Source of the DNA: Parcubacteria group bacterium
Lineage (GTDB): Bacteria > Patescibacteriota > Minisyncoccia > Portnoybacterales > UBA2143
Assembly (NCBI GenBank): GCA_002685955.1
Contig: NYYU01000032.1
Span: 1 to 34,452 of the forward strand
DNA length: 34,452 nt
Direction of reading: 5' to 3'
This document shows positions 7,972 to 8,649 of this stretch, one piece after another (within the stretch, counting starts at the first letter, position 1; every line of letters starts with the position of its first letter). Below the pieces are notes generated by a model that saw only the letters and a list, made by a program, of their open reading frames with translations, made no database searches and was not told the DNA's origin. Made by a program: the position numbers and the translations under genes.

Positions 7972-8000
7972 TAAATTGACTTAAGTAAGTTAGATAGTCG

Positions 8001-8292
8001 CCCCCCACCACTTTTTATGTTTTATGTATATGTTCTTAAAAGCAAGAAAGATAACAAATTATATATTGGATGTACTTCAGATTTGAGGAGAAGATATCAC
8101 GAACACAACAATGGTCAATCTTTATCCACTAAAAATCGTAGACCATTTGAACTTATTTATTATGAGGCATATTCTTCTTCAAAAGACGCAATAGCGAGAG
8201 AACGAAAACTAAAACGGTTTAAGAATTCGTATACTGAATTAAAGAAAAGGTTATATAATAGTATAATGTAAGACATAAAAAGTGGTGGGGGG
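8001..8292. mobile_element. Putative palindrome-bounded GIY-YIG element inserted as P3 of RNase P RNA
   Basis: Perfect 18-bp inverted repeat ccccccaccactttttat (8001-8018) / ataaaaagtggtgggggg (8275-8292) enclosing the GIY-YIG ORF 8017-8271. Confidence 0.75.
8017..8271 (+). CDS. Small GIY-YIG nuclease domain protein (UPF0213/YhbQ-like)
   Basis: MFYVYVLKSKKDNKLYIGCTSDLRRRYHEHNNG...STKNRRPFELIYYEAY; GIY-YIG core (YVYVLK..., LYIG), R and E residues. Confidence 0.92.
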   Translation: MFYVYVLKSKKDNKLYIGCTSDLRRRYHEHNNGQSLSTKNRRPFELIYYEAYSSSKDAIARERKLKRFKNSYTELKKRLYNSIM

Positions 8293-8507
8293 GAGGAAAG
8301 TCCGGGCACCCCAAGATTTAATCTTGGTCCTGACAGTGGATAACGTCCACCGTTCGTGAGAATAGGGAAAGTGCCACAGAGACAATGTTTCTTTGTTTTA
8401 GGGGTAATCTCCTAAAATGGGGTAAAAGTGAAAAGTGAGGGCCTAAGAATCCTCTCTCCGATGGGAGACCAATCGGAGTGGTAAACCCTGTCTGGTGCAA
8501 GAGCAAA

Positions 8508-8541
8508 CCCCCCACCACTTTTTTTAAAAAGTGGTGGGGGG
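8508..8541. repeat. 34-nt palindrome (16-bp arms) in P15-P17 region of RNase P RNA; ORF-less copy of the P3 palindrome
   Basis: ccccccaccacttttttt-aaaaagtggtgggggg; arms identical over 16 nt to those at 8001 and 8292. Confidence 0.93.
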
Positions 8542-8597
8542 TAAAAGTAGCTCGCTTGAGTTCAACGGCAACGTTGGACCTAGATAGATGACTATCA

Positions 8598-8615
8598 CCC
8601 CGCAGTACTGCGGGG
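8598..8615. repeat. 18-nt perfect palindrome CCCCGCAGTACTGCGGGG at P19 site of RNase P RNA
   Basis: Read directly, between P2 3' strand GACTATC and conserved GACAGAACCCGG. Confidence 0.9.
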
Positions 8616-8649
8616 GACAGAACCCGGCTTATTACTTGCTTGGGTTAGC

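Follow-up and report, generated by a model that had tools for sequence, protein, structure and literature searches.

A palindrome enclosing a GIY-YIG nuclease gene in helix P3 of a bacterial RNase P RNA, a probable mobile element

Contig NYYU01000032.1, analyzed here over its full 34,452 nt (the window), belongs to a draft metagenome-assembled genome (MAG; 919 kb in 58 contigs, 84% complete) and carries an RNase P RNA gene (rnpB) whose helix P3 holds a palindrome with one small gene inside it. This is the sole rnpB in the 84%-complete assembly searched. The insert is probably an autonomous palindromic mobile element, composed of a terminal palindrome of about 16–24 bp (CCCCCCACCACTTTTT...) and a single gene for a small GIY-YIG nuclease. 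An initial sequence-only reading had offered, as one option, a mobile element made of a palindrome and an endonuclease that a catalytic RNA can accommodate; this option is now favored by at least 22 distinct P3 cases, ends that belong to the element, copies without the gene (solo copies) in other helices, and relatives with an empty site.

The rnpB gene spans approximately positions 7983–8646. The Rfam model for class A RNase P RNA (RF00010) matches 8269–8646 at 164 bits, where the gathering score is 100, and P4 and the conserved regions are present. The model stops short of crossing the insert and therefore misassigns P1–P3, so the true P1 and P2 were read from the sequence. P2 and the conserved segment at 8293 lie where the sequence-only reading had placed them, and P1, P2, P4, and the remaining core are all present in the invaded gene. 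Folding of the whole 664-nt RNA yields a value 9.3 standard deviations below shuffled sequences, with the P2/P3 stem in both the minimum free energy and centroid structures. A TTGACA upstream of rnpB also occurs in several family relatives. The features, all on the + strand, are as follows.

7943–7971, +: putative rnpB promoter (TTGACA, 17-nt spacer, TAGGAT), read from sequence
7983–7990, +: P1 5' strand AAGTAAGT, partner 8634–8641, from sequence
7993–7999, +: P2 5' strand GATAGTC, from sequence
8001–8024, +: element 5' arm, which is the P3 5' strand and holds the start codon (repeat search, fold, covariation)
8017–8271, +: 84-amino-acid GIY-YIG nuclease open reading frame (ORF) (PF01541, 63 bits; purifying selection; fold nearest UPF0213 and Slx1)
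8269–8292, +: element 3' arm, which is the P3 3' strand and holds the stop codon (repeat search)
8293–8307, +: P4 5' strand region GAGGAAAGTCCGGGC, from the RF00010 alignment
8590–8596, +: P2 3' strand GACTATC, from sequence
8617–8631, +: P4 3' strand region ACAGAACCCGGCTTA, from the RF00010 alignment
8634–8641, +: P1 3' strand ACTTGCTT, from sequence

P3 occupies 292 nt (8001–8292), with a 24-bp stem and a 244-nt interior. The sequence-only reading had correctly seen an inverted repeat here but described it as perfect and 18 bp long; the repeat search gives 24 bp with one G-U wobble. Its placement of the ATG (8017) in the 5' arm also stands, but the TAA (8269–8271) is not just ahead of the 3' arm, and both codons lie within the P3 helix. 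Likewise, the absence of a Shine-Dalgarno (SD) sequence before the ATG is real but carries little meaning, because only 5 of the 27 genes in the window have an SD-like sequence, which is close to the random rate of ~14%. No intron family was found at the P3 insert in Rfam scans, and a simple palindrome is present there instead.

The identification of the encoded protein was sound. The 84-amino-acid ORF scores 63.3 bits for the GIY-YIG domain (Pfam cutoff 22.6), and its Pfam matches are limited to GIY-YIG and T5orf172, with neither a Y1 HUH transposase (TnpA_REP) nor a four-helix protein of the intervening sequence (IVS) type among them. The conserved residues of the family (Y, YIG, R, H, and E) are in place, with Y5, Y16, G18, R26, H30, and E62 invariant in a 10-row alignment. 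The predicted fold has a pLDDT (a model confidence score) of 86.8 and is nearest to UPF0213 (E 9e-4), followed by HIGLE and Slx1 (E 2e-3 to 6e-3). Slx1, which the fold prediction resembles, is a nuclease of branched DNA. The substrate of the present protein may be DNA in hairpin or cruciform form.

The same palindrome recurs in this genome. The terminal repeat, searched genome-wide as the 15-mer CCCCCCACCACTTTT with up to one mismatch, forms only three inverted pairs, namely the P3 insert with its ORF, a solo copy within this rnpB at P16/17, and a solo copy in 23S rRNA; the last two had escaped the sequence-only reading. The P16/17 placement comes from comparison with the RF00010 alignment and with relatives. 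The 23S copy (G000:C24:3418–3477) has a 28-nt loop, and its gene matches RF02541 at 2218 bits; from flanking sequence and established 23S anatomy, we take its location to be the H63 region. Chance is excluded as a source of these matches by their numbers, which far exceed expectation: CCCCCCACCAC with up to one mismatch has four matches in the window versus 0.16 expected, and a 16-mer with up to two mismatches has eight genome-wide versus one in a reversed control. A further ORF-less insert, found in 16S rRNA, has other arms that are similar to those of the element at locus L217 (CCCCACCTAACTTTG), and it may be a solo copy from a sister subfamily. The three other GIY-YIG genes of this genome were considered as copies of the same element and rejected, as none carries these arms.

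8508–8541, +: ORF-less (solo) palindrome copy at the P16/17 position of rnpB (arms 100% identical, 2-nt loop)
32903–33036, +: palindrome-ended ORF-less 134-nt insert in 16S rRNA, arms CCCCCACCTAATTTGGAT / ATCCAAATTAGGTGGGGG (Rfam scan, arms compared)

Relatives have empty sites, as is expected for homing elements. Each of the eight other family genomes (8/8) has a single rnpB with a short P3 hairpin of ~17–24 nt, as exemplified by L021 (GATAGTCG-CCCCGCAGTACTGCGGG-GAGGAAAG). At P16/17, wherever the stretch could be extracted, these relatives carry unrelated hairpins that are mostly short.

Related nucleases occur in many other genomes, and those that are named are mostly MAGs of the Candidate Phyla Radiation (CPR)/Patescibacteria, which makes it likely that the present genome is one as well. 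A genome scan for the ORF returned 79 loci, of which 78, including the window, were scored for flanks. Tight inverted-repeat flanks (score ≥14) surround 56 of the 78 related ORFs, compared with 4 of the 609 remaining ORFs at these loci. Six of the 79 loci lie within rnpB: four in P3 (L034, L035, L045, L085), one in P16/17 (L037), and one in P12 (L049, a Nitrospinota MAG whose rnpB scores 308 bits). By size alone ~0.04 would be expected (our own estimate, 79 × 400 nt / 0.8 Mb), a figure that is indicative only, as the sample is biased toward rnpB-resident kin. At L049, the P3 of the Nitrospinota rnpB (~2869–2891, CTCCCACACATAAGTGTGGGGG) also resembles the arms of other elements. At approximately 12 of the other loci, the element ends 10–28 nt ahead of a tRNA 5' end. 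A separate observation is that elements with GCCCCTCAC arms terminate at the 5' end of a tRNA in L030, L032, L036, L044, L046, L051, L054, and L055, where the tRNA begins with the final GGGGC-like bases of the arm.

Additional P3 cases were collected using a pattern in which the 3' arm is joined to the P4 strand. Among 293 genomes of the class, this pattern found the window and G126, whose element sequence is the same as that of L034. Metagenomes contributed 60 contigs, of which ~24 hold full inserts (281–314 nt, GIY-YIG ORF included), with some sequences shared by several assemblies, and 11 hold ORF-less palindromes of 33–103 nt in P3. De-duplication at 95% protein identity leaves 21 P3 cases. 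The P4 3' strand lies downstream in all 21, and a script detected the P2 complement in 19. A class profile search then added G239, the 22nd distinct case, with different arms, CCCC(A)CCTAACTTTG. The sequence-only reading was aware of no precedent for such an ORF among standard type A P RNAs, a statement that understates how often the arrangement recurs.

The element is also found outside of rnpB. A full GIY-YIG palindromic element resides in helix h6 of 16S rRNA (L236 in G106, ~160–460, minus strand), an insertion also recovered by the class profile search, and the same CCCCC(C)ACCACTTT arms terminate three intergenic copies (L026, L027, and L031). Because intergenic copies share these arms, the palindrome must be borne by the element and travel with it; a derivation of the arms from the host P3 was rejected for the same reason. 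In G294, two solos accompany one full copy within a single rnpB, and G299 contains five solos in addition to one full copy. Genomes G293–G297 have one rnpB match each, which is the invaded locus where coordinates are comparable. Thus, the same palindromic ends occur at several unrelated sites together with non-autonomous copies, as they do for Rickettsia palindromic elements (RPE) and miniature inverted-repeat transposable elements (MITEs).

Several observations made alongside concern other sites and arms. The solo palindrome CCCCTCACCACTTTT lies within a low-scoring 16S rRNA gene in L185 (G297, 1501–1607). In L180 (G295, 1501–1605), the solo CCCCCCACTACTTTT lies directly 5' of AACCAGGGTGGCACCGCGG, a T-box antiterminator-like motif; the T-box label is based on the motif GGGTGGCACCGCGG, with no Rfam match at E 0.01. 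A sister subfamily with CCCCGTTAGAGAT arms is represented by L069, L073, L078, L080, L087, L101, L103, and L104 from Omnitrophota, Planctomycetes, and CPR genomes.

Selection appears to preserve the helix as well as the protein. Stem positions 16–22, which the searched pattern does not include and which frequently coincide with the first codons, are paired in 18–21 of the 21 P3 cases with up to six pair types, suggesting that P3 pairing is kept by covariation. For the same inserts, the median proportion of synonymous differences (pS) is 0.85, at which synonymous change is saturated, versus 0.27 for nonsynonymous differences (pN), which points to purifying selection on the protein.

Comparisons of element and host also bear on mobility. 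Insertion-site labels cluster on the protein tree, with 12 changes versus a shuffled mean of 33.0. Arm types require 20 changes, a count with no shuffled comparison, and the CACCAC arm falls within one weakly supported part of the tree. Resolution of the tree is low (60 of 92 inner branches are open), and the proteins of L035 (P3) and L037 (P16/17) are sisters with starred support. Distances between elements and between rnpB cores are uncorrelated (Mantel r=0.08; 456 of 2000 permutations as high; short sequences). Vertical descent of one ancient P3 insertion is unsupported by this weak test, with the protein tree poorly resolved. A viral origin was rejected, as the arm-plus-P4 pattern is absent from viral contigs. 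Overall, the tree, solo, and intergenic evidence favors movement, short of an actual event.

Movement, cleavage, and RNA processing might proceed along the following lines. The nuclease would nick or cut palindromic DNA, perhaps as an extruded hairpin or cruciform, at sites that encode hairpins, and repair would then copy the element into the cut site in a homing-like manner. Insertion at a hairpin tip lengthens the helix. At the P3 tip it would be tolerated because the palindrome would fold as a longer P3, leaving P1, P2, P4, and the catalytic core able to form. Once the 3' arm has been transcribed, the complete stem would occlude the start codon of the ORF, and the nuclease would be made only from nascent or unfolded RNA. 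RNase III may nick or cut the long stem, and loss of the ORF would give rise to solo palindromes.

A number of points weigh against this account. The search pattern included the 3' arm, so arm identity among the metagenome cases is not independent evidence. The likeness to Slx1 is at the level of predicted fold, with modest scores, and specific DNA recognition may be absent from an 84-amino-acid domain. The incongruence between host and element leans on the weak Mantel test. No paired empty and filled strains of one species were found among the genomes compared. Also, no target-site duplication is recognizable by eye, and the C/G-rich ends blur the borders.

The alternative that survives best treats the insert as an RNA-level element like the IVSs of 23S rRNA, in which RNase III excises the loop to leave a two-piece P RNA and the nuclease is incidental. 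A stem of 24 bp is long enough for RNase III, and a gene for this enzyme lies on the same contig.

29862–30548, +: RNase III gene, whose product may process the long P3 stem (TIGR02191, 249 bits)

Such excision accounts for tolerance of the insert but not for its spread, and it is compatible with a mobile element rather than exclusive of it; as a rival explanation it is unlikely. Slightly less plausible still is a classical homing endonuclease gene, whose GIY-YIG protein would recognize the P3 of rnpB and cut empty alleles for repair to copy, the arms being merely the host P3 helix. In its favor, elements were found in P3 far more often than at any other RNA site, and in different families. 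However, the intergenic copies with the same arms, the identical solos in other helices and genes, and the elements in P12, P16/17, and 16S h6 indicate that the palindrome moves with the element and is not the host P3. A domesticated or regulatory feature, with the ORF kept for a host function such as a nuclease activity or tRNA processing coupled to P RNA level, would fit the purifying selection on helix and protein. It is nevertheless very improbable given the patchy distribution (absent from all eight family relatives and, by pattern, from most of the class), the related ORFs at many unrelated sites, and the ORF-less P3 copies. Finally, an assembly chimera or a pseudogene copy of rnpB, a concern for any draft MAG in 58 contigs, is in practice refuted by a 14,088-bp segment with the same insert at 99.99% identity in another metagenome assembly (L145, whose reads may not be independent), by more than 20 distinct cases in other datasets, and by intact P2 and P4 with no second rnpB.

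The preferred reading of a mobile palindromic element can be extended, tentatively and with somewhat less than even confidence, to a new minimal class of element in which one structure-selective GIY-YIG nuclease sits in one palindrome. Such elements would colonize the tips of hairpins within structured RNAs that are essential (RNase P, 16S, 23S, T-box leaders, and tRNA 5' ends) in CPR and other phyla, spreading by cutting hairpin-forming DNA and disguised as helix extensions.

If the insert is indeed mobile, a selfish element that encodes a protein would have taken up residence repeatedly in an essential catalytic RNA. This bears on the extent to which P3 can be altered, and naturally split P RNAs become a possibility. 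Annotation is affected as well: in each of the five invaded genomes searched (G293–G297), rnpB scores within 28.8–79.2 bits, under the Rfam cutoff of 100, with general CPR divergence contributing, whereas the rnpBs of the window (164) and L049 (308) are above it. It also becomes possible to ask directly whether so small a GIY-YIG protein can cleave palindromes in DNA and insert copies of itself at them.

Elsewhere in the window, the peptide RKVGIPTQK[TA]SGK is near-identical in two unrelated proteins (3014–3679 and 31651–32319), and a third (11299–12450) contains an odd TTCLPARQGNKKQETR stretch. Their pattern suggests protein-coding repeats.

Within open-licence full text, our search found no report of a GIY-YIG or other nuclease ORF in bacterial rnpB; nor did open-licence papers yield a palindrome uniting the RNase P and rRNA insert observations. 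Several known systems do share parts of this arrangement. In CPR 16S and 23S rRNA genes, small GIY-YIG ORFs have been described outside group I/II introns in less-conserved regions, and the insertions, many of them short, ORF-less, and of unknown nature, mostly sit at either the top or the base of a stem-loop (PMC11270868, J Bacteriol 2024). That paper covers rRNA genes only, and a term search in it found no mention of palindromes, inverted repeats, or RNase P; the present element may be one explanation for those inserts. CPR RNase P RNAs that have diverged, with some helices greatly extended and others lost, are missed at Rfam thresholds (Lui et al. 2021, PMC8172020). They share extended helices with the rnpB described here, and the element offers one explanation for some of these, although the corresponding portions of that paper mention neither an ORF nor a mobile element inserted into rnpB.

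RPEs have inserted in transfer-messenger RNA and M1 RNA (Ogata 2002, cited in PMC2229807) and thus are also palindromic repeats tolerated in RNase P RNA and other RNA genes. As far as the portions of the source drawn on here describe them, RPEs are short repeats with no nuclease gene inside, a comparison based on their published description. GIY-YIG homing endonucleases of the I-TevI type and UPF0213/Slx1 have the catalytic domain and fold in common with the present protein. However, the latter is a single domain of 84 amino acids bounded by a terminal palindrome, with no intron, and it is not lodged in a self-splicing intron or intein as homing endonucleases are. The element also differs from IVSs of the 23S type, in that its ORF encodes a GIY-YIG protein rather than the IVS-type four-helix protein. 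Repetitive extragenic palindromes (REPs) with TnpA_REP (the REP-associated tyrosine transposase, RAYT) and MITEs similarly combine non-autonomous palindromes with a nuclease-bearing full copy, but here a GIY-YIG nuclease takes the place of the Y1 HUH transposase, and a single hairpin encloses the gene.
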